64,000 nucleotides of DNA, taken from positions 65,710,255 to 65,774,254 of the forward strand of contig OX393551.1 of the NCBI GenBank assembly GCA_947650365.1, written 5' to 3'. Both the position numbers and the translations under genes were made by a program. Under the pieces are notes generated by a model, which was given only the letters and a program-made list of their open reading frames with translations, was not told the origin of the DNA and ran no database searches. The stretch is from Chamaelirium japonicum. Taxonomy: Eukaryota > Streptophyta > Magnoliopsida > Liliales > Melanthiaceae. The number at the start of each line of letters is the position of its first letter. The stretch's first letter is position 1. Shown here in pieces: positions 2,351 through 61,369 of this stretch.

Positions 2351-2930
2351 AACCAAGTGGTACATAACACTCCAAGTGAGTTCTACCACTTGGTCGATCG
2401 TTCAACAGGTCCCTCGCAGGGCGTGACCGACTGGTGAACGCCTTGGAAGATTGGTCGACAAACCCTGCTTGGGTACGACCGATCAACCAGCTTAAACCAA
2501 GTGGTACATAACACTCCAAGCGAGTTCTACCACTTGGCCGATCGGTCAACAGGTCCCTGCACAGGGCGTGACCGACCGGTGAACGCCTTGGAAGATTAGT
2601 CGACAGACCCTGCTTGGGTACGACCGATCAACTAGATTAAACCAAGTGGTACATAACACTCCAAGCGAGTTCTACCACTTGGCTGAGCGGTCAGCAGGTC
2701 CCTGCGTAGGGCGTGATCGACCGGTGAATGTCTTGGAAGATCGGTCGATAGACCCCGCTTGGGTACGACCGATCAATCGACTTAAAACATGTGGTATATA
2801 ACACTCCTAGCGAGTTCTATCACCCGGTCGACAGGTCGATAGGTCCCTTCGTGGGGTATGAACGGTCAGAGAACACACAGGAAGATTAGTCGATAGACCC
2901 CGCTTAGGTACGACCTGACAATCTACATAA
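2351..2930 (+). repeat. 145-bp tandem repeat, four units, between pol and antisense genes
   Basis: Four head-to-tail units start near 2351, 2495, 2640 and 2785. Each opens with AACCAAGTGGTACATAACAC or a close variant and contains a GGTCGAC/GACCGATCAA stretch. The fourth unit is the most diverged, and a partial fifth start is seen near 2928. Downstream regions of Tat/Ogre elements are known to hold tandem repeats that can seed satellites. The same four units occur at 56453-57033. Confidence 0.9.
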
Positions 2931-3153
2931 GCCAAGTGTAAGTGACACGCCGTCGGCGTGGAATCAAATCACAAGGTTGGTGAGAGAAAAAACATAACCA
3001 AAGAATGCAGAATAGACAATCACCAGAGGTTCCAGTACAAGCCTAAAGATTGTTTCATTACATTGCCAGATACAAAATATGAGGGGGTCAATCCTCTGAG
3101 GGGGCTTTCCCTTTTCCCTTCGACAGTTGACTGCGTAACTTGTCTATTTTCTT

Positions 3154-3636
3154 TCACCATCCGACTGCATGATTATCGAGAGCCGCTTGCACCGCCTTGT
3201 TGAGAACCTCATACTGTCGAGCGAATACCGCCTTTTCCGATGCAGCTGCCCGGTCTGTAGCAATCTCGAGGGAAGATTTCAGCACAGCGAGTTCGGCCTC
3301 GTAAACTACTCGGGATGCGTTTGACTTGCTTCGTTGTGTCCTGGTTATGACGGCTTGATCTCTGAATCGAGCATTCATTGCAGCAAGCTCAGACTGCACA
3401 GTCTCCAAAGCGACCTCAAAATCAAAGCGGTCTGCAACAAGATCCACCTTCGCGAGTTCAAGTTGGGACTCAATTTCAACCACCTCCTCGGAGTGGAGCT
3501 TTTGGGCCTCTGCCAGCATGTCTCGGGTTTTAACTAACTCTCGATGAGTAGTCATCAAAGAGAGCTCAAGCTGAGCAATCCTTTGTGCACCCCCCTCGGC
3601 AGCCCGGTCAGCTAGCATGGTGATACGGCTCCCCAT
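3154..3636 (-). CDS. Antisense ORF 2 of Tat element copy 1 (coiled-coil protein)
   Basis: This open frame lies just downstream of antisense ORF 1 on the same strand. Its first 25 bases overlap the end of that frame. It encodes 160 residues rich in Ala, Glu, Leu and Arg with heptad-like spacing (AQRIAQLELSLMTTHREL, QLELAKVDLVADRF), so a long coiled coil is likely. It matches no catalytic family I recognise. GT...AG-like signals lie between the two frames, so they may be two exons of one antisense transcript; that is inference. Copy 2 (57257-57739) is nearly identical. Confidence 0.6.
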   Translation of the reverse strand: MGSRITMLADRAAEGGAQRIAQLELSLMTTHRELVKTRDMLAEAQKLHSEEVVEIESQLELAKVDLVADRFDFEVALETVQSELAAMNARFRDQAVITRTQRSKSNASRVVYEAELAVLKSSLEIATDRAAASEKAVFARQYEVLNKAVQAALDNHAVGW

Positions 3637-5156: not shown

Positions 5157-5396
5157 TATCGACGAAGAAGCAGCGACTCAACACACTGAGACACATAGTC
5201 GACTGCAAGCAGCTGACCGTAAGTAGCAACGAGACGTGCAACCTCTTACACGCAGCCCCAAGACATGTATCCAAAAGAGAGCTGCAGTGAAGCTACCGAC
5301 TCACGCAACACACTACCTACCCGAACAAACCTTCACCAGCAGAAGAGAAGGAAAGAAAAATTTGAATCAGAGGAGGAAATATAAACCCTCAGGGCC

Positions 5397-5405
5397 CTAT
5401 TTATA
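5397..5405 (-). promoter_or_regulatory. TATA box for the antisense genes (copy 1)
   Basis: The minus strand reads CCTATAAATAGGG about 240 bases upstream of the antisense ORF 1 start. A good TATA box at this distance suggests the antisense module has its own promoter rather than relying on the LTR. The same bases are kept at 59500-59508 in copy 2. Confidence 0.6.
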
Positions 5406-5744
5406 GGAAAACTTGGAGCTCTGGGGATTGGTTTAAATCCCGAAAAAGGAGGAAGCTGGGTGGCGACGCGTGGTAATGCCATGTGGCAAAAATTTGGAAA
5501 AGCCCGGACCTCCATTTGAAGCTCCAGCAACACTAAAACTGGGGTTAGGGCCATCATGGCATGTAAACCGAGGCTGGCATGTAAACCGAGGCGGAAGAGT
5601 CTTGATCAGACAGAGCTGAAAATAGACCAATCAGGAGGGGGTATTGTGTGTACCCTGATGATTGGACCGGAAGGGGGCTTTGTCGTGGCCCGACCATGCA
5701 CTTCGTCACGAGCCGACCTTACGTTTTGGGCCCCGGAGAAGCAA

Positions 5745-6105
5745 GCAAACTTACCAGTAACCGCAATCTTGTTGTGGGTCGGCCACACGCGAAGATGAGA
5801 AGAAGGCAAACTTATCGGTAGCCGCAATCTCATCACGGGTCGGTCAAACGTGAAGATAAGAATAAGGCGAACTTACCGGTAGCCGCAATATCGTCACAGG
5901 TCGGCCACACGCGAAGATAAGAAGAAGGTAAACTTACCGGTAGCCGTAATCTCGTCACGGGTCGGCCACGCACGAAGATAAAAAGAAGGCGAACTTACAG
6001 GTAGCCGCAATCTCAACACGGGTCGGCCACGCGCAAAAAGGAGAAGAAAGCAAACTTACCGGGAGCCGCAATCTCGTCGCAGGTAGGCCACGCATTAAAA
6101 TAGGG
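5745..6105 (+). repeat. 61-bp minisatellite in the LTR, six units
   Basis: Units start at 5745, 5806 and onward every 61 bases. Each has the pattern GCGAACTTACCGGTAGCCGC, a CGGGTCGGCCAC core and an AAGATAAGAAGAAG tail. Copy 2 has the same array at 59848-60208. Confidence 0.88.
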
Positions 6106-6530
6106 AGAGGGGGGAGTCCAAGAACCCCCCCTGGTCGTCCGCGCGCTATGATTGGGAGAGGGGGGAATCCAACTCCCCCCCTGGCCGACCGCGCACTAAG
6201 CAAGGAGAGGGGGGGAGTCCAAGTCCCCCCCCCCCCCCCACACAAAGAGAGTCGGCCGCGCACTATGATTGGGAGAGGGGGGGAGTCCAACTCTCCCCCC
6301 CTGACCGGCCGCGCACTAAGCAAGGAGAGGGGGGAGTCCAAGCCCCCCCCCCCCCCCCCCCCCCCCAATGGGTCGACTGCGCACTATAACGAAGAGAGGG
6401 GGAGTCCAAACTGCCCCCCCGATGGCCGGCCATGCACTAAAATGACGAGAGGGGGACTGCCCCTCCTTTTGGCTGCTGGTCGGCCATGCACAAAAGTGAG
6501 GAGGGAGCACCCCCCCCCCCTCTGTTGATC
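6105..6530 (+). repeat. C/G-tract minisatellite in the LTR
   Basis: Roughly eight short units of the form GGGAGAGGGGGGAGTCCAA, then a C run, then GGCCGGCCGCGCACTA. C runs reach about 25 bases. Copy 2 (60208-60715) is about 71 bases longer overall, so this array changes length fast or is unreliable in the assembly. Confidence 0.85.
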
Positions 6531-6787
6531 GGCCGCATGCGAAGATGCTGCTCGAGGGGAATCAAGATACCCGAGAATCACGCCACCAAAATTCGTGACG
6601 GTTGAACCCAGGAATCTCGGGCGTACGACGGTTACGGGAGTAGAGCCCACGATCCCATGATTCCTGGCTGAAGTAACCGGGTGCCAGCCGGGCGCCACGT
6701 CCCCACCACACCGACGGTTGAGTACTCTGCGGGAGCACGTCATCAACCCATCCCGCGCGGAGCGCGCACCAACTGTCATCCCGGGGC

Positions 6788-6794
6788 TATAAAA
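6788..6794 (+). promoter_or_regulatory. LTR TATA box (copy 1)
   Basis: GGGGCTATAAAAGAGGACC is a clear TATA box inside the LTR, about 400 bases before its end. That is the expected place for the element's sense promoter. It is conserved at 60962-60968. Confidence 0.7.
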
Positions 6795-7195
6795 GAGGAC
6801 CTACCCCTTCAGCGCTAAAGGATCGAATTCTAGCGAAGGTGTTGTCCGATTCTTCTAGGATTTTGCGGAGCTAGAGTGACCGAGATTGCAAAGGTCTGTA
6901 TCACAACCGAGACTGCAATGGTCGGTATCTTGACCGAGATTGCAGAGGTCGGTATCTTGAGTGAAAATACAGAGGTCGGTATCTTGGGTAACCGGTCCTC
7001 TCAAGGAGTAACTGGGTTAAGGGTAAGAGATTTGTAACCAGACGGTTGTTTAGTGCATTCTCGCCCCGCCCCGTGGTTTTTTTCCCTTCGACGTTGAGAA
7101 GGGGTTTTCCACGTAAATCCGGTCTGCTTTACTTTTTGACTTGTTAGATTGTGCTTGCCACCCGAACCGCCCGGTTCAAGTAAAAACCCCCCACA

Positions 7196-9911
7196 GATAG
7201 ATCAGTCCAATATTGTCTACTTGTGTTTTTATTACATTATGATTATGTTACTATATCATTTGATTCTAACTTTAGCTGTTTGGACAACTCTCCTAGTCAA
7301 AGCTAATCAGACTCCTATCAACTGTCATTTCTTGGTGTTCATTCACTTTTTACTTAGAAACTTCCTCCATATCTTTAGATATATGTGGGTGAATTTTGTT
7401 GGACTTTTATAGATTTTTATATTTGCATTATAGCTGAAAGCTCTCTAGATAAGCTTTTGAAGGAGTCTACCTCCAAAAGGGAATGGTGAGGGATTTATAT
7501 GACCTGCATTACACTAATCAGATCCCTCCTTCCATTTGGTGCACGGCCAACATAGAACACAAGTGTTCATCATCCCTATTCCGAATGAGAAAGTAGAGAA
7601 CTTAAAGAAGGAATTATTGCAGCAAGTTTGATTGCAGCCAATTTTGGTGTAGTGTCCTCTCCAACCCTAGCCGCCATTCTCTCTCTCAGAGGCATCCCAA
7701 CAACTCTGAGGATCCGAACCGAGAACTAGGGCAAGGAGCGGAAGGATCACGTCTCGTCATCTCCTCTCGCACGCACCATCTCCCTCACATGCGCGACATT
7801 CACTCTCATGGAAACAATATATTTGATTCCATTTCCATCGATTCTGACGATGGATCTGGGGCTTTTTTCAATGAAAAATAATTCTAACACATTCCAGTGT
7901 ATATCCCTCGACGAGCAAATGTGTGCCCACGCCTTAGCTAGGCATACGATTGAATGTAATTGTAGTATTTTTTCTTTTGCTCTGTCATCATGTATTGTTC
8001 CTCTCATACTAAAGGAGAGGCTCGAAACTTTCACAATGAATATATTCAGGTATCTTTGGCTTCTCGATCTCCCTCTACCCCTTGTTGTGTTCCTGTTGAA
8101 TGCACTAACCAAGTGCAACATAGGGAAAAGGGAAGAATTACTCACACATTTAGGTAAAAGATAAAAAAAAATGTTCTCGTCTAATAAAATAACAAGAACA
8201 CCCTTAACTAATGTTGTAATCTTCTACACATCAAGTCATAAAATGGGAAGAATTCAGAACTTGGAAGGAACCCAATGCATCAAGGAAACATCAGTGATAC
8301 TACCAAGAGATTGTCGAATAAATCTCATTCACACAATCTGTAGAAGCATATATGAGGAATATAATATAAGTTAAATATGTTTTAGACTGTTTTACTCCCC
8401 CAAATCCCTCATTAAGTATAACTATTATCCCATACATATTTGTTTCTATCTACAGTTCCATAATTCAAAGTCAACAGAACCTATTTTTTCCGATAGGGTG
8501 AAGGACTTGGGAATGATAATTTATCACTCAGTCTGTTTCTATGCTAACCGGAACACGGAACCGTTGAATTACATTGGAAATAGTAATTGACAAAAATATC
8601 CTCTTCTGGATGAGGTTTAAGCAAAACAATTGTTCCTCATGCTAAACACCCCCTAACTAGCAGGGCATGCGATTTGTATGAAAAAATACTTGTGCTTTAC
8701 TCTAATTGCATATGGCATGAGATTTTATATATATGATATTTTTTGTTTTTATATTTTTTTAGTTTTATTTTTTCACTGCTTGGTTGCATGAGCTTAATTT
8801 GCGTAATCCATGGTACACTTGCCTCTCCGCCATTTGGACTTTTAGGTTTCTGAGCACGCTCCCTATCCTACCAAATTTACTTCTTTAGGTTTCATACCAA
8901 TAGTAGAGGGTTGATGTCGTGTTGATGGTCGGAAAATATTTTTAACTTATAGTCAACCCCAACTTGATGGGATAACAATGTTGATAATGATAATGATCAG
9001 TCGCTCGCAGGCAGAAGATCCAAACATTATTTTTAGATCATACATTGGAAAGCCTCAAACCCAGGTTACCCATCCCCTAACCACAGGAAATGATCAGTCT
9101 ACCATTACTGAAAATTTCAGCTGTTACTACATGGTGTGTTAGCATATACAACTATGAATTCATTATCTCATGTTTCTATTTTTGAATTTTTGGATATAAC
9201 CCCCAAACAAATATTGAAATTACGTTTTAAGTTTATGAATAATCGCCTCACATGCATATTCTGAAATTTACCCAACATAGGGCAAATAGTAACTATGGGG
9301 GGAGTTTATTAAATATCAGAATATATAAGGGGGTTATTCATAACGTCTAAAAAAGTGAGGGGGTTATTTGTAATATCAATATGTGTGACCTTCCAAAGGT
9401 ACATATTTAAGCTACTGTCACAAAAAATAAATAGCAATTAGAGACTGAAATCTACTATGGATAGATAAAGCAGCATTCTATCAGGAATGTTATGGAAAAA
9501 CAATATATACATAATAGATCACAATACTACAATGTAAAACCATAATTGTTTCTCCATAGCTATGGAAAATTTATCCAACTGAGCAATAATGCAGAAAATC
9601 AAAGGTCCATCTGAATGACAATCTAGAAAATCAAAGGTCGAATATTTGTCCCGAAATGCATTTATCATGGTGTCAACGGGTGATATCAAGATTCCTGTAG
9701 TTCTGACGAGCACCTCGAAAATTTCAACCCTGATAAATAAGGACAAATTAACACTGATCAAATTCAAAAGCCTAAAGCTTGAGTGCAAATAGCTGAAATA
9801 GATTCCACATGAGATTATAAAAGAACCAAGGATATAATATCATCACTATGTTATTTATATATGCAATGTGCATGCAAAGAAAAGTGGGCGCCAATGCATT
9901 GTTCAAAATAA
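7196..9911. other. Host flank between the LTR and ARF copy 1; no gene recognised
   Basis: AT-rich DNA downstream of the ARF gene. It holds a decayed MITE (8440-8652) and a palindromic tract with GGGGTTATT-like motifs (about 9190-9390). The longest open frames, such as 7747-8145 on the minus strand, show no recognisable protein. Bases 7196-9826 are repeated at 61370-64000. Confidence 0.7.
8440..8652. mobile_element. Decayed MITE related to the one at 15539
   Basis: GAAGGACTTGGGAAT, a later AAATAGTAATTGAC and the right end TGCTAAACACCCCCT match the element at 15539-15780. The left terminus is not recognisable. A second copy lies in the duplicated segment near 62614-62826. Confidence 0.55.
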
Positions 9912-14005
<4,094 letters not shown>

Positions 14006-14510: not shown

Positions 14511-14527
14511 CTATAAAAAAAAGAAAA

Positions 14528-14702
14528 GAATTGCTATTCAGCCCCAAGGTTTTCCCGATTCTGCGTGGCAGCTCACAAGTGGTGGTTGAATGTCACTAGT
14601 AGATTTGAATGTCCCTTGTGAGATTCAACCACCACTCGTGCGCTGCCACGTCAATTGGGCTTAGCAGAATCCGAAAAACCTTCGGACTGAATAGCATTTC
14701 TC
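14528..14702. mobile_element. Mutator-type MITE, family 'TGCTATTCAG', copy 1
   Basis: A 175-bp element with inverted ends GAATTGCTATTCAGCCC and (reverse complement of the right end) GAGAAATGCTATTCAGTCC. It is flanked by a perfect 10-bp direct repeat AAAAAGAAAA (14518-14527 and 14703-14712). A 9-11-bp AT-rich duplication with long inverted ends fits Mutator-like MITEs. Relatives lie at 38156-38340 and 53408-53602. Confidence 0.7.
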
Positions 14703-27164: not shown

Positions 27165-28859
27165 TTATGTTTTCCAATCACACCACTTGCTGTGGTGAAT
27201 GCCATTTCGGTTTCCAATCATTTGGCTCCTCTTGGCTGAGGCAGAGCTTTGATCTGCCCGTCCACCTTTGCCATTAATCTCAATCTGCACCTTCCGACGC
27301 CTCATTCGGTTCTCCAACCTTATGCCTCTCAGTGCCCGAACCCTCTTCTCAATCTCCAGAGCTCTAGAAAAGTCCCAGACCCTAACAATACCATCCTCAC
27401 CTCCAGATACAATCCTATCTCCGCCAACAGCAACAGAGAACAGATTGCTCCCAAACCCATGCAGTATCCTTTGAGGAGGTTCCACACTGCCTGGGCCCAA
27501 CTTCCTGACAATAGAATGGTGCCGGGACGAAGACTGCTGGCTTGATCCCAGTAGCTTCCTCACATTGATTAAAGCTATCCGTCCATCATTAGAAGATGAC
27601 ACAAGCCACGGAAACTCAAATGCAAGCGAATGAACTGAACCTGTGTGAGGAGTCCAGGTGGTAGCTGCCTTGATGTCAACATCACCACTGCAGCTGACAA
27701 CCTTAAACATGTGAATGGACCCATCTTCTCCCCCAGTAAACAGCAGATCTCCCGTGTGGCTCCGGGCCAAAGCATGTGCATTGCCTACATGAGTATTATC
27801 AATAACAGCCATCAGGTTTCCCTCGTCAATATCCCAAACATAAACATCTCTACCAGCCGTGCTTGCCACAGTAGAGCCGCGAGGTGCAAGAGCCCAAATC
27901 CAATCACCATGTATCAATGTCTTCAAGCACTGCAATCGAGCTCGGTCCCAAACTCGAACGCTCATATCCCACGAACCGCTAAAAATTCTAGTAGAATCCA
28001 ATGCAAGGCAGGTGACTGGGCCTTCATGCCCCCAAAGTCGGAACTCGGAATTCTGGTTTGCAGCGGACCCAGTAATGTCAAACAAATGGGGGTGCCCTTC
28101 AATCGCCCTCCAACACTGGAGAAAGGCATTTGTGCCTCCCGCTACCAAGAGCTCAGCATCTGCTGCAATGGCACGAATGGTGCACCCAAGAGGCCGAGAC
28201 GCTGAAACCAAAAGGCCTTCTTCCATGTCCCACATACGAACAATAGAGTCGTACCCACCGGAGAATATGAGCTTCACGGACTGCAGGAGGAAGACCGCAC
28301 GGACCGCTTCCGTGTGCCCGCGGAGAGCGTCAACGCTAAAACGCCCCATGAACGACTTGCTCCGGAGCTCCCTCTCTACGAATATTTCCTTCCATGACCT
28401 CTCGTTCGGAAGGTCCGGCCCCGACGGTGCGGTAGGACCCAAAGGAGGGCCCCATCTCTTGCAGTAGAAGTCCTTCCACCCGTGATGATCAGACGCTAGA
28501 CCGTTGAGGAGGGTGGAGACACAGGAGACAATCCCAAGATCTTTTGGACCAAGGCAATGTAAGATCTCAGAGACTAAAGCCAGAGGGAGGTCAGTGATCG
28601 ACCGGCCGCCATAAGGATCCGAGCCTTTGACGCTCGTGCCCTCTAGCGCTGTGATACCCTTCTTCGAAGGAAATTGAGAAATTCGTTTCAGTGCAGACTG
28701 TGCAGTACATTTGTTGCCAGATTTCTTTGCGGTATTGGATGCCGAAAGGGCGCTAGGGCGGCGAGAACTTGGATTGGGTGGTGCAGCCTTTTCGTCTGGA
28801 AGACTATCTACTAAGTATCCGGATGAGGAATCACCTATTTTCGGGCATTCCAAGGCCAT
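27165..28859 (-). CDS. FBX2: F-box/WD40 repeat protein, FBX2-like (At5g21040 type)
   Basis: An intronless 564-residue coding region. A low-complexity N terminus (1-85) is followed by an F-box at about 87-130 (ITDLPLALVSEILHCLGPKD). About seven WD40 repeats follow, starting near residues 178, 222, 275, 315, 362, 404 and 466 (for example LRGHTEAVRAVF...SIVRMWD and LWGHEGPVTCLAL...SVRVWD). The C terminus is basic (RMRRRKVQ, 518-525), perhaps a nuclear signal. F-box proteins link substrates to SCF ubiquitin ligases through SKP1; the WD40 propeller would bind the substrate. In Arabidopsis FBX2 has been tied to phosphate-starvation responses. Orthology is judged from domain order and sequence feel, not a search. 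The start is the first ATG of the frame, in keeping with MALEC at the N terminus. Confidence 0.9.
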   Translation of the reverse strand: MALECPKIGDSSSGYLVDSLPDEKAAPPNPSSRRPSALSASNTAKKSGNKCTAQSALKRISQFPSKKGITALEGTSVKGSDPYGGRSITDLPLALVSEILHCLGPKDLGIVSCVSTLLNGLASDHHGWKDFYCKRWGPPLGPTAPSGPDLPNERSWKEIFVERELRSKSFMGRFSVDALRGHTEAVRAVFLLQSVKLIFSGGYDSIVRMWDMEEGLLVSASRPLGCTIRAIAADAELLVAGGTNAFLQCWRAIEGHPHLFDITGSAANQNSEFRLWGHEGPVTCLALDSTRIFSGSWDMSVRVWDRARLQCLKTLIHGDWIWALAPRGSTVASTAGRDVYVWDIDEGNLMAVIDNTHVGNAHALARSHTGDLLFTGGEDGSIHMFKVVSCSGDVDIKAATTWTPHTGSVHSLAFEFPWLVSSSNDGRIALINVRKLLGSSQQSSSRHHSIVRKLGPGSVEPPQRILHGFGSNLFSVAVGGDRIVSGGEDGIVRVWDFSRALEIEKRVRALRGIRLENRMRRRKVQIEINGKGGRADQSSASAKRSQMIGNRNGIHHSKWCDWKT

Positions 28860-29340
28860 AAAAGAGGCACGCCCAAAACCAAAGGAACCCTAGAACAGGG
28901 TCTCTCAGATTCAATTCAACTCCAAAAAAAAAAAAAAACCTAAAAGGCCTCCCTTTGAAACCCTAGGATCAGCAAACCCCAAAATCTAAACAAAACACTC
29001 AAAGGCCACCCTTTAGAACCCTAGGATCAGCAAACCCTAAAAGGCCTCCCTTTGAAACCCTAGGATCAGCAAACCCTAAAATCTGAACAAAACCCTAATC
29101 AGCCGGAGAGATTCACAATAATTCGAGATCTTGATAACGCTGAGTAGCCCTAGCGCCCACAGAAGCCCCAGAGAACGAAATTCAAAGCTCAATTAACCCT
29201 AGAAATCGAAATGCTAAGGAGAAATCGAATTGGGGGAAAAAAACTATCAGAAGATAATAAAAATATATAGCTGATGACTGAAACCCTAGAATGATTTTCG
29301 ATTGGTACCTCGGATGCCTCTCCTCTCCGAGATGTAAAGC
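28860..29340 (-). promoter_or_regulatory. Leader and proximal promoter of the F-box gene, with telo-box repeats
   Basis: Three near-identical tandem units of about 40-57 bases (28942-28980, 28999-29038, 29039-29080) each carry AACCCTAGGATCAGCAAACC. AAACCCTA telo-box motifs recur through 28957-29290. A possible 5' UTR intron has a donor CCGAG|GTACC near 29308 and an acceptor TTCTAG near 28890. This is inference without transcripts. Confidence 0.5.
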
Positions 29341-30845: not shown

Positions 30846-31194
30846 CAATTAGTTAAGACTTTGGCCAATGGAGTAAGCTTTGGATTTCAAAAAATTATCC
30901 AAGAATGAGTCGATAATTCCAAAATATTTATGATACTTAAAAAAATTCAATCTATCTTTGTTCATAGAGTCGATAACTCCGAAATCCTATATAATTTTGA
31001 AGAGTTATAGAATTTAGGTATAAAATTCTATATCTTCAAATTCCTATAGGATTTCAAAGTTATCGACTCTATGAACAACGACTGATCAAATTATTTTAAG
31101 TGTTTTTTTATGCGCCTATACAGTTATTGACTCATCCTTGGGTAATTATTTAAAATCCAAACCTTAATTCATTAGCCAAAGTCTTAACTAATTG
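30846..31194. mobile_element. Foldback MITE, about 349 bp
   Basis: The left arm starts CAATTAGTTAAGACTTTGGC and the right arm ends GCCAAAGTCTTAACTAATTG. The arms continue inward through GGATTTCAAAAAATTATCC and its counterpart and through two GAGTCGATAACT-type motifs. There is a second inner palindrome around 30970-31065. No target duplication is clear. Confidence 0.75.
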
Positions 31195-31320: not shown

Positions 31321-32357
31321 TGGGGGGGGGAGGTAATTTTTGGGCTAAAATGGTAGGCACAATCTAACAAACCAAATAGACGCAAGATACCGGGTTTACA
31401 TGGAAAAGCCCTTTGCAACTTCGAAGGGAAAAAACCATGGGGTGAGGCAAAAAAATACACTAGAAATTAACCGGTTACAAACTCTCACCCTGACCCATTT
31501 ACACCTTGAAAAGTTCGGCCTCCCGATTGCTAACCTCTCCACTCTCTCTGTTGTGCAAAAAATTTGAAAAGAAAGCAACAACACCTCCCCTTCCAAAATT
31601 CGGATCCTTCTTCTGTGGGGGTAGGTCCCCTTTTATAGCGGCCTGGGAGCCTGAGGTGATGATCCAAGTGCTCCGAGTGGGACGAACTGGGTGACGTGCT
31701 CTTGTGATTTCAGCAGTTGTATGGCATCTTTCTTTACTGGTTGACCGAAAATCTCGAGGCATGAACTGTCCGACCGATATTTTCAGGAGTAACTGCCAAA
31801 TAAAATGGGTGCGGGATCTTTGGGCCACCTCTTCTTGTAAATTATGAAGCTACCTTGGGGCACGAAGTAGGACGACGCACTTAGCTTGGTCGGTCCCCCT
31901 TAGCGTGGTCGGCCAAAACCAAGTAGGACGACCCCCCTTTTTGCTTGGTCGGCCTTCCTTAGCACGGTCGGCCAAAACCGAGTAAGACGACCCCCTTTTT
32001 CTTGGTCGGCCTTCCTTAGCACGGTCGGCCAAAATAGAGTAGGATGACCCCTCCTTTGCTTGGTTAGTCCCTCTTAGCAAGGTCGGCCAAAACCGAGTCG
32101 AATGACCCCCCCCTTTGCTTGGTCGGTCCACCTTAGCACGGTCGCCTAAAATGGAGTAGGACAACCCTCCTTTGCTTGGTCGGTCTTCCTTAGCACGGTC
32201 GACCAAAACCGAGTAGGGCGACCCCCGGCCATTTTCTTGGTCGGTCCACCTTAGCTCGGTTGACTAATATAGAGTAGGACGACCCCCTTGACTCGGTCGA
32301 CCTTTCTTAGCACAGTCGGCCAAAACCGAGTAGGACGATTGATAAAACCCGATCACA
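31321..32357 (-). mobile_element. Solo or isolated LTR of a Tat-type element
   Basis: The minus strand carries the same layout as the LTR at 5645-7195: a tandem minisatellite, a TATA box (GCTATAAAAGGGG, 31631-31637), then U5 (TTTTTTCCCTTCGAAG, TTTTCCATGTAAACCCGG, TTGTTAGATTGTGCCTACC). It begins about TGTGATCGGGTTTTATCA (32357) and ends in a C run at 31321. No pol sequence is attached on either side. No good 5-bp target duplication was seen. It is clearly diverged from the other LTRs, so it is another family or an older copy. Confidence 0.7.
31880..32340. repeat. 59-bp minisatellite in the isolated Tat LTR, eight units
   Basis: Each unit reads about CTTGGTCGGCCTTCCTTAGC, then ACGGTCGGCCAAAACCGAG, then TAGGACGACCCCC. 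Eight units at 57-61-bp spacing. The GGTCGGCC core recalls the 61-bp array in the LTR at 5745-6105. Confidence 0.88.
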
Positions 32358-32459
32358 CCAGTATCTTAAGTCTGATTCGTTTGCAGTAAGGGCTAACAAC
32401 TAGTATCGTCCTCAGGGATTGTGACTGCATAACTAAGGTTGATTTTAGGGATTAAAGTA

Positions 32460-34465
32460 ATTAGGTGAGATTCTATCGGGTTTTTTGATAGTGAGATTCT
32501 ATTACTGGGTTTTTTCGATAGTGAGATTTTATCGGGTTTTTGATAGTGACATTCTACTACCGGGTTTTTCGACAGTGTGATTCATAATTGAGTTTTTCGA
32601 CAATGAGATTTATATAGAATCTCACTATTGAAAACTAATTCTCACTATTAAAAAACCAATTCTCAATGTCGTTGGGTCTTAATACCGTTGTTGACTTTTA
32701 TCCCTTTTAAATGATAAAAATATCCCGTCACATCATGCCTGTCCGTCCCTATCGCTACAATCACTTGCATATTTTTGCTACAATGATTTTACTTTAGCAA
32801 TTTTTTTACCAATAAGATTTTACCAAAAAATTTGATATTGCATCCGTGAACTCAATGTGAAAGTCAGCCTATACTTTGTTAGAACCATGTTTAGGTCATT
32901 ACAAACCTTTACATTTTTACGGATGTTCATGTGGGATTGCATCACACCTGCATATTTGATCGAGTTACATTTTTTTTTGGTGAAATCTCGCTGTGAAAAA
33001 AAATGCTACAGTAAAATCATTGTAGCAAAAATAAGCAAGCGACTTTAGCGATAGGGACGGAGAGACATGATGTAAAGGGATATTTTTATCATTTAAAAGG
33101 GATAAAAGTCAGCAACGGCATTGAGACGACATTGAGACCCAATGTCATTGAGAATTGGTTTTTCGATAGTGAGATTCTATTTGAATCTCATTATCAAAAA
33201 ACCCAATAATGAATATTACTATATAAAATCTGGTAGTAGAATCTTACTATTGAAAAATCCGATAGAATATCACTATTGAAAAACTTGATAATTTTCAGTG
33301 TTGGATTTTTTGACAATGAGATTCAATTTTTTGATAGTGAAATTCTACTATTATATTTTTCGATAGTGAGATTCTATCAGATTTTTTTCGATAGTGAGAT
33401 TCTACTATCGGATTTTTCGATAATAAGATTCATTATTGGATTTTTTAATAATGAAATTCATATAGAATCTCATTATCGAAAAATAAATTCTCACTGTCAA
33501 AAATATTACATATAAATCTCATTATCGAAAAACTCGATAGAATCTCACTATCGAAAAACCGTATAATATTGGGTTTTTCAACTATGAGATTTTAATGGTG
33601 GGCTTTTAGACAGTGAGATTCGATTTTTTAATAATATTTTGATAATGAGATTCTATCTGGTTTTTCAATAGTGAGATTCTATTGTCGAAATTTTTAACAG
33701 TGAGATTCATATGCCAGCTTTTTCGATAGCAAGATTCGATTTTTCGATAGTAAGATTCTATCGAGTTTTTCGATAGTGAGTTTCAAATGTCAAATTTTTC
33801 GATATTGATAATTGGTTTTTCGATAGTGCAATTTTATTGGGTTTTTCGATAGTGTGAATCATTATTGGGTTATTGATAATGAGGTTCATATGGTGGGTTT
33901 TGGGAGCTATAGAAAATAGTGAGATTCTACTGTCAGTTTTTTCAATAGTGAGATTATATTGAGTTTTTCGATAGTAAGATTCTACTACTGGGTGGACAGT
34001 TGGGTTTTCGACAATGAGATTCATATGCCGAGTTTTTCGATAGTGAGATTTTAATGCTAGGATTTTTTTATGGCAAGATTCGATTTTTTGATACTATTTT
34101 GATAATGAGATTCTATATGATTTTTTTATTGTGAGATTCTATGTCGGATTTTTCATCAATGGGATTCAAATGCTAGGTTTTTTCGACAATGAGCTTCGAT
34201 TTTTCGATAGTGAGATTATATCGGGTTTTCCGATAGTGAGATTACTCGCCGTATGAATCTCACTGTCAAAAAATTTGATAAAATCTCATTATCGAAAAAC
34301 CATTTCTTATTATCAAAAAATATGGTATATGAATCTCACTATCGAAAAACTCGATATAATCTTACTGTCGAAAAACCGAATCTCACTGTCGAAAAACTTG
34401 TCATATGAATCTCATTGTCAAAAAACCCAGCAGTAGAATTTCACTGTCGAAAAATCAGATATAAT
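32460..34465. repeat. Orientation-flipping array of about 25-30-bp repeats (foldback-like)
   Basis: Several dozen units of the form TTTTTCGATAGTGAGATTCT plus a short variable spacer. Blocks run forward (32467-32618), reverse (32619-32663), forward then reverse (33150-33300), forward (33300-33465), reverse (33470-33560), forward (33565-34245) and reverse (34250-34460). Flip points are themselves palindromic, such as GAGATTTATATAGAATCTC near 32606. Each unit holds CGATAG...CTATCG, a small hairpin. A non-repetitive palindromic core lies at 32664-33150. No coding sequence was found. Foldback transposons, whose arms consist of short tandem repeats, are the nearest known class. Confidence 0.85.
32664..33150. 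repeat. Long imperfect palindrome at the core of the array
   Basis: The left arm (ATTCTCAATGTCGTTGGGTC, TTTTATCCCTTTTAAATGAT, then CCCTATCGCTACAATCACTT) pairs with a right arm (CGACTTTAGCGATAGGG, ATCATTTAAAAGGGATAAAA, then GACCCAATGTCATTGAGAAT). The loop is about 180 bases near 32810-32990. The outer ends of both arms run straight into the short-repeat array. Confidence 0.8.
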
Positions 34466-35937
34466 CTTAAGAGACTTAGTGAATGGTCCAAAATAGAGGA
34501 TCTTTTTAAGCCTAAAAACATAGGATGAAAATGCCCCTCAATTGGCTTCAAATTTTTATTTGCATTTCACTTTCCTCTAAAGTAAGCCTAAAACCTAAAA
34601 GTAATCCAAAAACCTAAGATCCACAGGCCATGGGGTGAACCATAGACCTAATCTGAACCTAAAACCTAATATCTACAGGCCACGGGGTGAACTCTAGACC
34701 TAATCATAAAACCTAAACCCTAAAACCTATGATCTACATGCCATGGGGTGAACCCTAAAGTCCTAGATTTAATCCCAACCCTAATCCGAACCCGCTCGTC
34801 GTTGCTGCTTCTCATGTCCATTACTCGCTGCTGTCGCTCGTCGTAGTTGTTGCTGTCATTGGCTACTCACGGCAGTCCGTTGCAGCTCACAACTTGTCGC
34901 CATCTGCTCAAGAGAGAACATGGAAAGGGGGAGAATGGGGGGGCAATTTTGGGTTAATGAAATGCATTTTGGACCTCCCCTTAAAAGGATCTTATGAGTG
35001 TCCTATTCATTAATAGGATCTATTGTTTGGGACCTAACACCCATTTCCCCTAAAAAAAATTATTTTTTGTTTATTTTTATCACATACTCCAAAATCCTTT
35101 CAACAATCCATTATGAGAAATATTTTTAATAAATATGTACAAATTGGGTATTTAAGTTATGTTGTCTCAACCTTGCAATCTTACCCAAATTCAAATAAAA
35201 AGCAAATGAAAGCAGCAATAGCCTTCCATAGGCGCTCAAACATCTTTGGATAAATCCATGTGACACTGAAACGAAGGTTTTTGAAGGTGTGGGTGCCTGG
35301 GCGGAGAGTTGGCGGTAGAGATGGATCCAGGGAGGCATGTGGGGGTGACCACCCCCCCTAGATTCAAAATAGAACCCCTTATTAAAAGTTCGTCCCTCTG
35401 AATTTATCCAAAGAGAAATTAAGTTCCTATCAGGTGCGCATGGAAGAGAAAAAATTATAAATTGCTAGGATTATTTCTCTTCCATGCGCACCTGTACCTC
35501 CCCTTAAAAGGATTATTTTAAATTAAAAATTTTGCTCGTATGGAAGAGAAATTAAGTTCCTATCAGGTGCGCATGGAAGAGAAAAAATTAAAAATTATTA
35601 AATTAAAGATCTTATACCATTCGTGAAAAAAGTGCTGAACTATAGATCATTAATTAACCATATTTTTTTTTTAATTCCGATGAAGTAATTAATATAAAAG
35701 ATATCTCAAGGAAACTAAAACACAGTCTGCATTGAGTGAAGGTGGCATCGTGTGGTTCTTACCCCTACATGGTTTCTTTGACCATGTTCATTTGAATTGT
35801 TTATCACTAAAGTTTTAACATCATGTCAGTATTTCCATTTGTCGTAAAAATTGAACATAGAAGGTGTTGCCATTCAATATTCTAAAAAATATGAAGATAA
35901 AAAAATAGTAGTGTTGATGCCTAACTTATGATAAAAT
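34466..35937. other. Intergenic DNA with small repeats
   Basis: 34605-34780 holds three units of about 55-60 bases built on GGCCATGGGGTGAACC and AAACCTAA motifs. 35410-35590 holds two direct copies and one inverted copy of a tract with TTCCTATCAGGTGCGCATGG and AGAGAAAAAATTA. No gene is recognisable. Confidence 0.65.
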
Positions 35938-38155: not shown

Positions 38156-38340
38156 AATGCCATTCAGCCCGAAGGTTTTTTCAATTTCTCCGGCCCGATC
38201 GACGTGATAGCGTGCAACTAGTGCTGTTAAATATTCTAAAATCACTAGTGGGTTTTAGCTTCAGCCACAAGTTGCACGCTGCCACATCAATCGGGCCAGC
38301 GAAATCGGGACAAACCTTTGGGCTGCTGGATAGCATTTCT
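38156..38340. mobile_element. Mutator-type MITE, family 'TGCTATTCAG', copy 2
   Basis: Ends AAATGCCATTCAGCCCGAAG and (reverse complement of the right) AAATGCTATCCAGCAGCCCA, flanked by A runs. It contains a second inner inverted pair (CGTGCAACTAGTG and complement-like sequence). It is related to 14528-14702. Confidence 0.6.
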
Positions 38341-44339: not shown

Positions 44340-44839
44340 NNNNNNNNNNNNNNNNNNNNNNNNNNNNNNNNNNNNNNNNNNNNNNNNNNNNNNNNNNNNN
44401 NNNNNNNNNNNNNNNNNNNNNNNNNNNNNNNNNNNNNNNNNNNNNNNNNNNNNNNNNNNNNNNNNNNNNNNNNNNNNNNNNNNNNNNNNNNNNNNNNNNN
44501 NNNNNNNNNNNNNNNNNNNNNNNNNNNNNNNNNNNNNNNNNNNNNNNNNNNNNNNNNNNNNNNNNNNNNNNNNNNNNNNNNNNNNNNNNNNNNNNNNNNN
44601 NNNNNNNNNNNNNNNNNNNNNNNNNNNNNNNNNNNNNNNNNNNNNNNNNNNNNNNNNNNNNNNNNNNNNNNNNNNNNNNNNNNNNNNNNNNNNNNNNNNN
44701 NNNNNNNNNNNNNNNNNNNNNNNNNNNNNNNNNNNNNNNNNNNNNNNNNNNNNNNNNNNNNNNNNNNNNNNNNNNNNNNNNNNNNNNNNNNNNNNNNNNN
44801 NNNNNNNNNNNNNNNNNNNNNNNNNNNNNNNNNNNNNNN
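44340..44839. other. Assembly gap of exactly 500 N
   Basis: A round 500 is a placeholder size, so the real distance is unknown. The flanks are perfect inverted repeats: ACACGCGATCTAGTGT on the left and ACACTAGATCGCGTGT on the right. Any reading frame drawn across it is meaningless. Confidence 0.99.
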
Positions 44840-54102: not shown

Positions 54103-56342
54103 AGCTAGGTGCAACGCTGGGCGTGTATCTTTCGGTATCCGAGGCAGCAATCAGTGCAGTACTGATATACAAGCGGGACAAGGTGGAGAGACCCATCTAC
54201 TACGTCAACCGCATCATGACGTCGACTGAAACTAGATACGCGTGGATCAAGCAAGTTGCACTGGCGTTGGTGTATGTATCAAGAAGGCTCCGCCCATACT
54301 TCGTCGCCCATTCTATCGAGGTCATCATCTAGCACCCCCTGAAGGAAGTAATATATAACTTTACGCGGGCAGGTCGTCTGAGTAAATGGGCTGTTGAACT
54401 GCAAGAATTTAGCCCTCGGTACGTGCCTCGGAAAGCAATCAAGGGTCAAGCACTCGCAGACTTCCTCAACGATTTTTTGGCGGAAGACTTTACACCGGTG
54501 CAAGGATTATTGGAAGACCCGTCGGTAGCTACCGGCCGACCCATGGGAGTCGGTACGGCAGCAGGATAAGGGGAAGATGAAGAAGAAGGTTGGAGGTTAT
54601 TCGTGGACGGCTCATCGTGCACAACCGGGAGTGGTGTGGGGGTAGTCCTGATAACCCCTGACCACACGAAACTCAAAAAATCAGTGCGACTACTCTTCCC
54701 GGCAATGAACAATGAGGCCGAATATGAGGCGATGTTGGAGATGGCAGAAGCGCTGGGGGTGACCAGCTTACAAGTCTATGGCGACTCCCAACTTGTGATC
54801 AATCAGATTACCGGTAGATACGAAGCCCGCGATGCGAGAATACTGGCCTACTTGAAGCTAGTGCGAGAACTGATGGTCAAGTTCGAGAGCATAGACTTCC
54901 ACCAATTCTCCATATTGGAGAACAAGCGGGCGGATGCCCTCGCTAACCTAGCATCAGTCCTTGGCGGAGATGAAGAAAAGCGGGTCATCATCGAGGTACA
55001 GGCCAGCCCCAGAATAGTGGACCACACAGAGGATAGCCGCCTGATCGAGAAGATACAAGCCACTGGAGCGGTGTATGCTATCGCAGCCAATGATGAGTGG
55101 GTAGTCAATATGAAGAAATACATTCTCGATGGGATACTACCAGAAGATACTGATGATTCAAGGAGAATTAGGGCGCATGCACCGAGATACACTCTCATCG
55201 AAGATGAACTATACAAGTGCTCGTTCGGCGGACCCTACCTCAAGTGCCTTGTATAAGGGCAAGCAACAGAGATCATGAAGGAAGTACATGAAGGAGGGTG
55301 TGGGAACCACTCCGGATGAAGATCCCTGGAGCGAAAGATAAAGTTGAAGGGCTACTACTGGCCCACCATGGAAGCAGATGCGGAAGGATACATGAGGAGA
55401 TGTCTTCAATGTCAAAAGCATGCTCCCTCCATACACCAACCAGCTGAAAAGCTGCACCCAATATCCAGCCCTTGGCCCTTCCAGCAGTGGGGGTTGGATA
55501 TTTTGAGTCCGTTCCCGACATCGCCCAATCGAAGAAAGTTTTTCCTCATCGCCACCGACTACTTCACCAAGTGGGTAGAGGCCATTCTTTTGCTGAAAAT
55601 CGGAGAGGTTCAAGTCGGAAAGTTTTTATGGAGTAGCATCATCTGTCGATTCGGATTGGCACTGGCTTTTGTTGCAAACAATGGGCGACAGTTCGATGCA
55701 GAGTCAATTAAGAAGTTTTGCACCAACAACAACATCAAGTTGTTCTTCTCTACACCCCGCTACCCTCAGAGTAACGGGCAAGCAGAGTCGATGAATCGAG
55801 CTATTATGGACATGCTGAAGAATAAGCTGGAGCAGAAGAAGGGTCTGATGGAGGAAGCCTTACCAGGAGTTCTACGAGCTTACCGCACGATACCGAAGAG
55901 ACCGATGGGCGAGTCTCCGTTTAGTCTCACTTACGGCTCCGAAGCAGTCTTGCCCATGGAAGCACTGGTCTCGACATTGCAGACAGCTATAATTTTCGAC
56001 CTAGAGGTGAATAGCGAACTCCTGCTTGATAACCTAGACCTACTGGAGGAAAAGAGGGAAAGAGCGAGGGCACGCCTAGCTAACTATCATCAATCCATTA
56101 AGAAGGCGTACAATCGCAAAGTTAGAAAGAGAATCTTCAAGCAAGGTGATCTGGTCATGTGGAAGGTCTTTGATAACACTAAAGAGCCAGGAAATGGCAA
56201 ACTGGGCGCTACTTGGGAAGGGCCATACATCATGGATAGCATGGGGAAGAATGGTGCCTATCGTTTAAAGACCCAAGACGGTGACGCACTGGCAAGGCCA
56301 TGGAATGCAACCAATTTGCGCAAGTTCTACCAAGGCAGCTGA
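54103..56342 (+). pseudogene. pol 3' part of Tat element copy 2
   Basis: RNase H end (54103-54332), archaeal-type RNase H (about 54600-55000), and integrase zinc and core domains with a GPY-type C terminus (about 55280-56250). Broken in about three places. The domain signatures are as described for 1-2240. Confidence 0.9.
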
Positions 56343-56452
56343 GCAGGAGCAATGCATGTAGTCACATTATAGCTTGAATTCTATTTAATAAAGAGACATT
56401 TTCTTAGTGTTTTTGTATATGTGTAATGATGGTGGTTGACTAACACAATAAA

Positions 56453-57033
56453 AACCAAGTGGTACATAACACTCCAAGCGAGTTCTACCACTTGGCCGAT
56501 TGTTCAACAGGTCCCTCGCAGGGCGTGACCGACTGGTGAACGCCTTGGAAGATTGGTCGACAGACCTTGCTTGGGTACGACCGATCAACCAGCTTAAACC
56601 AAGTGGTACATAATACTCCAAGCGAGTTCTACCACTTGGCCGATCGGTCAATAGGTCCCTGCACAGGGCGTGACCGACCGGTGAATGCCTTGGAAGATTA
56701 GTCGACAGACCCTGCTTGGGTACGACCGATCAACTAGATTAAACCAAGTGGTACATAATACTCCAAGCGAGTTCTACCACTTGGCTGATCGGTCAGCAGG
56801 TCCCTGCGTAGGGCGTGATCGACCGGTGAATGTCTTGGAAGATCGGTCGATAGACCCCGCTTGGGTACGACTGATCAATCGACTTAAAACATGTGGTATA
56901 TAACACTCCTAGCGAGTTCTACCACCTGGCCGACAGGTCGATAGGTCCCTTCGTGGGGTATAAACGGTCAGAGAACATATAGGAAGATTAGTCGATAGAC
57001 CCCGCTTGGGTACGACCTGACAATCTACATAAG
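56453..57033 (+). repeat. 145-bp tandem repeat, four units (copy 2)
   Basis: Same unit number and order as 2351-2930. Single-base differences are scattered and there is no change in unit number, which fits copying of the whole block rather than local expansion. Confidence 0.9.
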
Positions 57034-57256
57034 CCAAAGTGTAAGTGACACACCGTTGGCATGGAATCAAATCACAAGGTTGGTGAGAGAAAAAACATAA
57101 CCAAAGAATGCAGAATAGACAATCACCAGAGGTTCCAGTACAAGCCTAAAGATTGTTTCATTACATTGCAAGATACAAAATATGAGGGGGTCAATCCTCT
57201 GAGGGGGCTTTCCCTTTTCTCTTCGACAGTTGACTGCGTAACTTGTCTATTTTCTT

Positions 57257-57739
57257 TCACCATCCGACTGCTTGATTATCGAGAGCCGCTTGCACCGCCT
57301 TGTTGAGAACCTCATACTGTCGAGCGAATACCGCCTTTTCCGATGCAGCTGCCCGGTCTGCAGCAACCTCGAGGGAAGATTTTAGCACAGCTAATTCGGC
57401 CTCGTAAACTACTCGGGATGCGTTTGACTTGCTTCGTTGTGTCCTGGTTATGACGGCTTGATCTCTGAATCGAGCATTCATTGCAGCAAGCTCAGACTGC
57501 ACAGTCTCCAAAGCGACCTCAAAATCAAAGCGGTCTGCAACAAGATCCACCTTCGCGAGTTCAAGTTGGGACTCAATTTCAACCACCTCCTCGGAGTGGA
57601 GCTTTTGGGCCTCTGCCAGCATGTCTCGGGTTTTAACTAACTCTCGATGAGTAGTCATCAGAGAGAGCTCAAGCTGAGCAATCCTTTGTGCACCCCCCTC
57701 GGCAGCCCGGTCAGCTAGCATGGTGATACGGCTCCCCAT
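57257..57739 (-). CDS. Antisense ORF 2 of Tat element copy 2 (coiled coil)
   Basis: 160 residues, differing from 3154-3636 at only about four positions. It has the same coiled-coil composition and the same overlap with antisense ORF 1. Confidence 0.6.
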   Translation of the reverse strand: MGSRITMLADRAAEGGAQRIAQLELSLMTTHRELVKTRDMLAEAQKLHSEEVVEIESQLELAKVDLVADRFDFEVALETVQSELAAMNARFRDQAVITRTQRSKSNASRVVYEAELAVLKSSLEVAADRAAASEKAVFARQYEVLNKAVQAALDNQAVGW

Positions 57740-59259
57740 CTGTCAAAAGTGAAAGCGATGAGTATCGAAGAGCTAGTAGAGTAAGTCACTACTAGAAGGA
57801 AACCATCGACTCCAAGAAGACTCACCTCACGAAGGTTGACAGGTGAGTCTTGCCAGCCTGCACTACCTGCCGCTGTATCATCCCTTTCCCGTCCTGGAGG
57901 AGAAGCCAGACCCTCTCCCTCCATCTTATAGTGAGCGGAGGTCCAGCTAGCACGACGACGAGGTGCAGACTCAGTAGCCCCGTGAGGAGACCCAGAAGGG
58001 GGCCTGGTGGCACCCACTGAAGAAAAGGAGGAAGGCAAAGGAACGTGGGGTCGTACATTCAAGTGATCTCCCGGCATAGCAAATGTCAGAGCGCCACGGG
58101 TGCGAGACAAAGTTCGGATTCGAGAATCTGCAGAGTCGGATGACACTACGTGTCTACTCCTCCCGAATGAAGGGGGAGTGTATCCGCGTGACATCTCTGA
58201 CTCGTCTACCTCAATGAAATTCGGACCAGGGGAAAGTACATCCTTGACCCAATCATCAGGAAGGGAACGCAACACCTTATAGGCAGACCGCCTTGTGACG
58301 TGAATGCCGGAGACGTCATCCTCACCGATATCGCTGGTAGACTTACCCAAGATGACACGCCTCCTTGAATGCCCAGTTGACGCTGCTGTGTCACGGGCAG
58401 CAACTGTTCGACTATCGTCACCCGCAGCTGTAATAGACCTCGTGCGACACTTGAGGATCACGCAAAGCTTAGACGTTAAGGTGTTGGGGTTATAGCGTCT
58501 AACGGAGCTGACATACATATCGAAAAGTTCCATAGAAGGAGCAGATTGCTCCCCTCCTCCACTAGTTATCATAGATTGTTTCCCCTTTTTAGGCATGTTG
58601 TGAGCTATAACTATCGGGAGTTTCATGAATAGCTGCCTCCAGTCATCGTCATCCTGGGTGACTCTCCTGATCAGTGCATCCAGATCTTCCTCGACACCCT
58701 CAGGGCACTTGAGTTGCCCAGAGGGATAATAGTCTTTGATAGTGTAAGCCAGATGGAAAACAGTCCTGGAGATCTTGTGACGACCCCTCCACAGTCCCCC
58801 AACAACAAGGGGACACTCCTTCCAGCCCTTGACGGAGTCACACAAGCCTCCAATATGAGAGCGACTGCCAATGCGAGCCTGCAAGCTGAAGTATGAGTAT
58901 ACGGATCCAACGGTCACTTTGTAGTCTTTGATGAAGTATTTCTTAAGAAGGTAGGCCACACAAAGTTGCTGCCTCGCCATCTCCTCTATTGCTTCAACAC
59001 AGTGAAGTATCCTCCATCCGTTGCCGGCAATCTGGCCAGGAGACACCCCCATGCGCTCCAGCAGACGACCAAAGAAACTTGCTAAAGGAAGTCTCAGGCC
59101 ACACCGCAATTGTCCCAAAGTCACAATCGTGTGATCGCCCGAAGGGTCCAAAGGACCAGTCGTGAAGGAAAGAGAAATGTCAGCAGGAATGCAGTATGTC
59201 GTCCGGATGTCTTCCAGCAGCGAAAACTTCTTGGGAACTGAGAACCAATTGAATGACAT
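57715..59259 (-). CDS. Antisense ORF 1 of Tat element copy 2
   Basis: 514 residues, the same length as 3612-5156, with roughly 20 residue differences. The PF04195-like region (GLRLPLASFFGRLL) is kept. The frame is whole although pol on the other strand is broken in several places. That contrast may reflect youth or selection; it cannot be settled by eye. Confidence 0.75.
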   Translation of the reverse strand: MSFNWFSVPKKFSLLEDIRTTYCIPADISLSFTTGPLDPSGDHTIVTLGQLRCGLRLPLASFFGRLLERMGVSPGQIAGNGWRILHCVEAIEEMARQQLCVAYLLKKYFIKDYKVTVGSVYSYFSLQARIGSRSHIGGLCDSVKGWKECPLVVGGLWRGRHKISRTVFHLAYTIKDYYPSGQLKCPEGVEEDLDALIRRVTQDDDDWRQLFMKLPIVIAHNMPKKGKQSMITSGGGEQSAPSMELFDMYVSSVRRYNPNTLTSKLCVILKCRTRSITAAGDDSRTVAARDTAASTGHSRRRVILGKSTSDIGEDDVSGIHVTRRSAYKVLRSLPDDWVKDVLSPGPNFIEVDESEMSRGYTPPSFGRSRHVVSSDSADSRIRTLSRTRGALTFAMPGDHLNVRPHVPLPSSFSSVGATRPPSGSPHGATESAPRRRASWTSAHYKMEGEGLASPPGRERDDTAAGSAGWQDSPVNLREVSLLGVDGFLLVVTYSTSSSILIAFTFDRWGAVSPC

Positions 59260-59499
59260 TATCGACGAAGAAGCAACGACTCAACACACTGAGACACATA
59301 GTCGACTGCAAGCAGCTGACCGTAAGTAGCAACGAGACGTGCAACCTCCTACACGCAGCCCCAAGACATGTATCCAAAAGAGAGCTACAGTGAAGCTACC
59401 GACTCACGCAACGCACTACCGACCCGAACAAACCTTCACCGGCAGAAGAGAAGGAAAGAAAAATTTGAAGCAGAGGAGGAAATATAAACCCTCAGGGCC

Positions 59500-59508
59500 C
59501 TATTTATA
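59500..59508 (-). promoter_or_regulatory. TATA box for the antisense genes (copy 2)
   Basis: CCTATAAATAGGG on the minus strand, conserved with copy 1 and about 240 bases upstream of antisense ORF 1. Confidence 0.6.
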
Positions 59509-59747
59509 GGAAAACTTGGAGCTCTGGGGATTGGTTTAAATCCCGAAAAAGGAGGAAGCTGGGTGGCAACGCGTGGTAATGCCATGTGGCAAAAACTTGG
59601 AAAAGCCCGGACCTCCATTTGAAGCTCCAGCAACACTAAAACTGGGGTTAGGGCCATCATGGCATGTAAACCGAGGCTGGCATGTAAACCGAGGCGGAAG
59701 AATCTTGATCAGACGGAGCTGAAAATAGACCGATCAGGAGGGGGTAT

Positions 59748-61369
59748 TGTGTGTACCCTGATGATTGGACCGGAAGGGGGCTTTGTCGTGGCCCGACCAT
59801 GCACTTCGTCACGAGCCGACCTTACGTTTTGGGCCCCGGAGAAGCAAGCGAACTTACCAGTAACCGCAATCTTATTGTGGGTCGGCCACACGCGAAGATG
59901 AGAAGAAGGCAAACTTATCGGTAGCCGCAATCTCATCACGGGTCGGTCAAACGTGTAGATAAGAATAAGGCGAACTTACCGGTAGCCGCAATGTCGTCAC
60001 AGGTCGGCCACACGCGAAGATAAGAAGAAGGTAAACTTACCGGTAGCCGCAATCTCGTCACGGGTCGGCCACGCACGAAGATAAAAAGAAGGCGAACTTA
60101 CAGGTAGCCGCAATCTCGTCACGGGTCGGCCACACGCAAAAAGGAGAAGAAGGCGAACTTACCTGGAGCCGCAATCTCGTTGCAGGTAGGCCACGCATTA
60201 AAATGGGGAGAGGGGGGAGTCCAAGAACCCCCCCTGGTCGGCCGCGCGCTATGATTGGGAGAGGGGGGAATCCAACTCCCCCCCTGGCCGACCGCGCACT
60301 AAGCAAGGAGAGGGGGGAGTCCAAGTCCCCCCCCCCCCCCACAAGGAGAGTCGGCCGCGCACTATGATTGGGAGAGGGGGGGAGTCCAACTCTCCCCCCC
60401 CTGGCCGGCCGCGCACTAAGCAAGGAGAGGGGGGAGTCCAAGTCCCCCCCCCCCCCCCGGGCCGGCCGCGTACTATAATTGGGAGAGGGGGGGAGTCAAA
60501 CTCCCCCCCCCCCCCCCCAACGGGTCAACTGCGCACTATAACGGAGAGAGGGGGAGTCCAAACTACCCCCCCCCCCCCCCACCCCCCGATGGTCGGCCAT
60601 GCACTAAAATGACGAGAGGGGGACTGCCCCTCCTTTTGGCTGCTGGTCGGCCATGCACAAAAGTGAGGAGGGAGCACCCCCCCCCCCCCCCCTCTCTGTT
60701 GATCGACCGCATGCAAAGATGCTGCTCGAGGGGAATCAAGATACCCAAGAATCACGCCCCCAAAATTCATGACGGTTGAACCCAGGAATCTCGGGCGTAC
60801 GACGGTTACGGGAGTACAGCCCACGATCCCGTGATTCCTGGCCGAAGTAACCGGGTGCCAGTCGGGCGCCACGTCCCCACCACACCGATGGTTGAGTACT
60901 CTACGGGAGCACGTCATCAACCCGTCCCGCGCGGAGCGCGCACCAACTGTCATCCCGGGGCTATAAAAGAGGACCTACCCCTTCAGCGCTAAAGGATCGA
61001 ATTCTGGCGAAGGTGTTGTCCGATTCTTCCAGGATTTTGCGGAGCTAGAGTGACCGAGATTGCAAAAGTCTGTATCACAACCGAGACTGCAATGATCGGT
61101 ATCTTGATCGAGATTGCAGAGGTCGGTATCTTGAGTGAAATTACAGAGGTCGGTATCTTGGGTAACCGGTCCTCTCAGGGAGTAACTGGGTTAAGGGTAA
61201 GAGATTTGTAACCAGATGGTTGTTTAGTGCATTCTCGCCCCGCCCCGTGGTTTTTTTCCCTTCGACGTTGAGAAGGGGTTTTCCACGTAAATCCGGTCTG
61301 CTTTACTTTTTGACTTGTTAGATTGTGCTTGCCACCCGAACCGCCCAGTTCAAGTAAAAACCCGCCACA
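59748..61369 (+). repeat. 3' LTR of Tat element copy 2
   Basis: It starts TGTGTGTACC after the same purine tract and ends ...CCGCCACA. Length is 1622 bases against 1551 in copy 1. The extra length is in the C/G-tract array (60208-60715). The 61-bp minisatellite is at 59848-60208 and the TATA box at 60962-60968. Confidence 0.75.
60208..60715 (+). repeat. C/G-tract minisatellite in the LTR (copy 2)
   Basis: It has the same short units as 6105-6530 but more or longer C runs. It accounts for nearly all of the 71-base length difference between the two duplicated copies. Confidence 0.85.

Follow-up and report, generated by a model that had tools for sequence, protein, structure and literature searches.

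A 2-kb array of 19-base units in alternating orientation in Chamaelirium japonicum is probably an old foldback-type transposon

We analyzed 64,000 nucleotides of DNA from Chamaelirium japonicum (positions 65,710,255 to 65,774,254 of contig OX393551.1, assembly GCA_947650365.1; we refer to this whole stretch as the window). Among the ten open reading frames that we scanned, one is a clear host-type gene: an open frame of 574 amino acids with F-box and WD40 domains (27168-28889, minus strand). Pieces of gypsy- and copia-type retrotransposons were also found among these ten frames. A direct repeat of at least 9.9 kb (1-9826 and 54103-64000; 97.4% identity, 54.1 kb apart) reaches both ends of the window. 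Its left copy contains one frame with RNase H and integrase domains and another with a sub-threshold gypsy-type match. This pair could have come from a segmental duplication or from two related insertions, or it could reflect an unpurged haplotype. The window also includes a gap of exactly 500 N (44340-44839) and a 57-bp tandem repeat (31866-32338; 8.2 copies, 76% matches) that ends 126 bp to the left of the array described here. Besides the array, there are four other self-complementary stretches of at least 150 nt (72-78% by blastn; 30846-31194, 13320-13605, 14527-14701, and 38165-38325), which resemble small inverted-repeat elements.

The array spans about 2 kb (32465-34467, including parts of units at its ends) and contains 54 copies of the 19-base word TTTTTCGATAGTGAGATTC, with at least 13 of 19 positions matching. 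(At this threshold we counted 55 non-overlapping units in 32440-34480 and dropped the one within the core, at 32983.) The rest of the window contains 29 units at the same threshold: 24 with 13 matches, 3 with 14, and 2 with 15. If up to three mismatches are allowed, then the 19-mer has 42 matches, all of them within 32481-34454 and none elsewhere in the window, while 0.07 were expected from shuffled sequences.

The units are arranged in eight blocks, in the order F5, R2, core, F1, R4, F6, R4, F24, R8, where F or R gives the orientation (forward or reverse) and the number is the count of units (Table 1). There are seven orientation switches; one spans the core and five lie to the right of it. 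This agrees with the original prediction, which had described several switches and a right arm that flips four or more times. The same prediction described a 2-kb array of repeats of about 28 bp. The array is present, but its period is not uniform: of the 46 steps from one unit to the next within a block, 36 are 21 bases (7 steps), 26 bases (10), 28 bases (7), or 29 bases (12), and the remaining 10 steps are between 20 and 40 bases long. Furthermore, a 76-bp higher-order repeat (steps of 29 or 30, 21, and 26) occurs five times, with two of the five in R8, and Tandem Repeats Finder (TRF) also reports a period of 76 in the array. Within F24, the stretch 33616-33675 recurs as a direct repeat 460 bp further on, at 34076-34135 (88% identity; 73% over 150 nt). 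The array is more ordered than was first described.

Table 1. Parts of the array, in window coordinates.
Feature	Position	Strand
Block F5, left arm: five forward units and a partial terminal unit	32465..32611	+
Junction J1, near-palindromic F-to-R flip GAGATTTATATAGAATCTC; homologous to J1' (inverted) and J2	32605..32623	
Block R2, inner reverse units left of the core	32617..32655	-
Core, holds inverted repeat 32676-32830 / 32973-33127	32664..33150	
Block F1, inner forward unit right of the core	33159..33177	+
Junction J1', inverted copy of J1	33171..33189	
Block R4, outer right arm of the putative core-bearing foldback	33183..33283	-
Block F6, left arm of the further core-less arm set	33306..33459	+
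Junction J2, homologous to J1 (67%) and J1' (75%, inverted)	33453..33471	
Block R4 of the core-less arm set, directly after J2	33465..33558	-
Block F24, with 3 of the 5 76-bp higher-order repeats and the 460-bp-offset direct repeat	33574..34244	+
Junction J3, F-to-R flip centred differently and not closely matching J1, J1', or J2	34238..34261	
Block R8, inverted relative of 33648-33862	34255..34467	-

The core had been predicted to be palindromic, and indeed it contains an inverted repeat whose arms are 155 nt long, 88% complementary, and 142 nt apart. A second inverted pair (32640-32688 and 33126-33174; 49 nt, 86%) extends from the core into the units. The units that flank the core are reverse on its left and forward on its right, which places the core at the center of a foldback. 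We also considered whether the core might be a separate element that was inserted into a one-way array, and we rejected this because the flanking units are inverted rather than direct. The right arm of the core contains a degenerate unit-like word (14 of 19 matches; 32983-33001), which may be a trace of the core arms also deriving from units. At the other end of the array, F24 and R8 form a hairpin of their own (33648-33862 versus 34253-34467; 215 nt, 80%). If folded as single-stranded DNA, 32540-33290 has a predicted energy of -197 kcal/mol (the mean of 20 shuffles is -64; z = -22.7) and 33570-34468 has a predicted energy of -143.5 kcal/mol (the mean of 20 shuffles is -74; z = -15.0); these modeled energies reflect the inverted repeats and do not in themselves demonstrate the cruciforms that the original prediction suggested, which might stall replication.

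Four of the switches are from forward to reverse, with centers near 32613 (J1), 33181 (J1', inverted), 33461 (J2), and 34248 (J3). The flip points had been described as palindromes of the GAGATTTATATAGAATCTC type. We found this type at three of the four F-to-R flips, but they are near-palindromes with an unpaired middle, and the flip at 34248 has another center. When scored roughly one base away from the true axis, the ungapped self-complementarity of the 101-bp flip windows is only 24-36%. All four flips, including J3, are predicted to fold as hairpins over 81 nt (with RNA parameters and no shuffle control).

We compared ungapped 101-bp windows near the four F-to-R flips to every position in the array, on both strands. 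Over 101 bp, J1 and J2 are 67% identical, J1 and J1' are 60% identical, and J1' and J2 are 75% identical. For comparison, the background is 28-31% (for these three junctions, a mean of 29-31% with a standard deviation of 5%) and the next-best match is 50-54%. For each of J1, J1', and J2, the two best matches in the array are the other two. The arms that lead to these junctions are also similar: when read from the outside to the junction and slightly beyond it, E1-left, E1-right, and E2-left are 74-78% identical in all three pairs. Furthermore, the spacers outside of the junction, reading inward, are 25/29/28, 26/28/28, and 28/29/28, which are the same classes in the same order, with small differences in length. 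Together, the mutual best matches, the identity of the arms, and the order of the spacers indicate that three of the four F-to-R junctions (J1, J1', and J2) are copies of one ancestral junction. J1 and J1' belong to the two arms of one foldback, and J2 belongs to a further arm set without a core. E2 is not simply a recent tandem copy of E1, as E2-left is no closer to the E1 arms (74% and 78%) than these are to each other (78%). In contrast, J3 has a best match of 56%, near several positions in the array, and has no partner junction. Because J3 is unrelated to J1, a single ancestral design cannot account for every flip.

We searched for a target-site duplication with paired ends outside of the array, and 31 of 60 shuffles of the flanks scored at least as high. 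The outer flanks share just one 5-mer, and no superfamily-defining ends are supported at the ends of the array. Its original ends might since have decayed, or they might be missing altogether. The one open reading frame from the array that we scanned (33761-34093) had no match in Pfam, so there is no sign of a transposase in it. By blastn (E up to 1e-3), 31800-35200 has no match in the rest of the window, and an Rfam scan of the whole window gave no matches at gathering scores. The exact 19-mer had no matches in viral contigs and one match in genome contigs, from a bacterial MAG record, which we treat as chance. We also tried two other accounts of the flanks. The right flank might have been a further small inverted-repeat element, but this was not supported: it has no pair at its left edge, and its score of 36 is below the maximum of 46 for shuffles. 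Another idea was that the flanks of the array are part of the repeat 7001-7160 / 31351-31509, so that there might be an empty site, and this was not supported either.

The array has the structure that is sought in a foldback element: long inverted arms of short tandem repeats around a middle domain. Our preferred reading (probability roughly 0.68) is that the array is a non-autonomous foldback-type DNA transposon of considerable age, consisting either of a single unit or of two or three of them compounded. A foldback reading had been offered in the original prediction, and the arrays around an inverted-repeat core and the strong predicted hairpins fit it; the flips, however, are not all independent. 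The core-bearing unit (about 32465-33290) has arms of short words around the central inverted repeat, with a near-palindromic J in each arm. Adjoining it are an arm set with J but without a core (about 33306-33560) and a core-less hairpin array (33574-34467). In Galileo, which is a member of the P superfamily, the transposase binds with its DNA-binding domain to tandem repeats within the long terminal inverted repeats (TIRs), and the available text of the same study describes such binding as untested for Foldback elements proper (PMC3688188). By analogy, the words in the array might have been repeated binding sites for a transposase that was supplied in trans. The TIRs of Galileo are described as differing in length because tandem repeats expand and because inner sequence is taken up in inverted orientation (excerpts of PMC3688188 and PMC3573991), and the extra arms in C. 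japonicum likely arose in these ways. The arms could have been multiplied by unequal exchange or by template switching between inverted repeats, and the locus would now be immobile and decayed. More tentatively, the array could represent a family in which each arm carries a built-in J between its outer and inner arrays (so that the element is F-J-R-core-F-J'-R) and which multiplies its arms, both inverted and direct, at the site. This would yield a self-inverting modular array with a spacer code of 21, 26, 28, and 29, and we consider this more specific scenario to be doubtful. If other copies share the plan F-J-R-core-F-J'-R, then the growth of long inverted arms, and the reason why foldback families are so variable, could be tested at the level of sequence.

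The flips themselves raise the possibility that the array was misassembled from chimeric reads that fold back on themselves, and the window includes the 500-N gap and the 9.9-kb repeat at both of its ends. Such errors should yield inverted copies that are nearly identical. At its highest, inverted identity reaches 97.5% over 40 nt, but over longer stretches it falls to 92% over 100 nt and 88% over 150 nt in the core, and to 85% over 100 nt and 82% over 150 nt in the arms. Because the best inverted pairs of at least 100 nt differ by 8-20%, we consider misassembly to be very improbable. The differences among units speak for decay of the element and are consistent with past cytosine methylation: relative to the 19-mer, the units have 91 transitions and 43 transversions, and at the CpG of the unit, 27 of the 54 copies have CG, 12 have TG, 7 have CA, and 8 have something else. 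The ratio of transitions to transversions varies among pairs of arms (11:8 for the core, 29:14 for E3, and 6:7 for J1'-J2), and the J1'-J2 pair does not have such a bias. The long predicted stems would also suit a hairpin-RNA locus that is kept to make small RNAs that silence related elements. However, the 80-88% identity of the stems resembles drift, and we view this explanation as very improbable too.

Two other explanations deserve more weight than these, although we consider both of them to be unlikely. The array might represent the subterminal repeats of a CACTA (En/Spm) element that has degenerated. The subterminal regions of CACTA elements have words of 10-20 bp, in direct and inverted orientation, that bind TnpA (PMC8978399, PMC8195511), and the short words of the array likewise occur in both orientations. 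TAGTG, the inverse of CACTA, is found near the right end (34477-34481, starting 10 bp beyond it), but a single match of five bases at only one end could be coincidental. On the left side, there is no CACTA in 32301-32500, and the single TAGTG there (at 32489) is inside a unit, so the ends are not those expected of a CACTA element. The 3-bp duplication of these elements was not found either, and no paired-end duplication rises above the shuffles. For subterminal regions, the available portions of these papers (PMC8978399, PMC8195511) describe neither blocks with as many as 24 units in the same orientation nor a central inverted repeat. Alternatively, the array might not be a transposon at all but a minisatellite that expanded locally through tandem amplification and was repeatedly inverted in place by template switching at palindromes. 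The 76-bp higher-order repeats and the 460-bp-offset direct repeat inside F24 speak for such a process, and it would also be consistent with the lack of another copy in the window, the lack of a supported duplication at the ends, and the independence of J3 from J1. On the other hand, a structured ancestor is indicated by the core, which is not made of units and has a 155-nt inverted repeat of its own, and by the repeated J with its ordered arms.

The plant foldback elements FARE, Tnr8, and SoFT have long inverted arms of short repeats around a middle part. As these elements are generally described, the array is similar to them, but its arms have internal near-palindromic flips, and they are followed by another set of arms and by an additional hairpin array. 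The original prediction also held that no named plant family matches, which was too strong: the titles cited in PMC3169594, as far as its text is available, include FARE (from Arabidopsis), Tnr8 (from rice), and "Foldback transposable elements in plants." Outside of plants, Tetris from Drosophila virilis is a non-autonomous foldback that is also modular, with variable internal tandem repeats and rearranged forms. It differs in having 220-bp repeats and target duplications of 8-10 bp, whereas the array has 19-bp units and no supported duplication (excerpts of PMC4079207). Galileo resembles the array in its long and internally repetitive TIRs, but its transposase is known and its repeats are about 210 bp, whereas nothing in the array points to a P-type transposase (PMC3573991, PMC3688188, in part). 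Tm1, a Mutator/Foldback element of root-knot nematodes, has composite arms with a varying number of a motif of about 14 bp, as the array does with its own units; in Tm1 there are 9-bp duplications and a transposase with a MULE domain (available sections of PMC3169594). The foldback arms of Tetris are described as able to seed satellite arrays (PMC4079207, in part), and the locus in C. japonicum suggests how a foldback element can become a satellite-like array of alternating polarity. In summary, elements of this kind are known; what makes this one an unusual variant is its compound plan, in which each arm has an internal flip.
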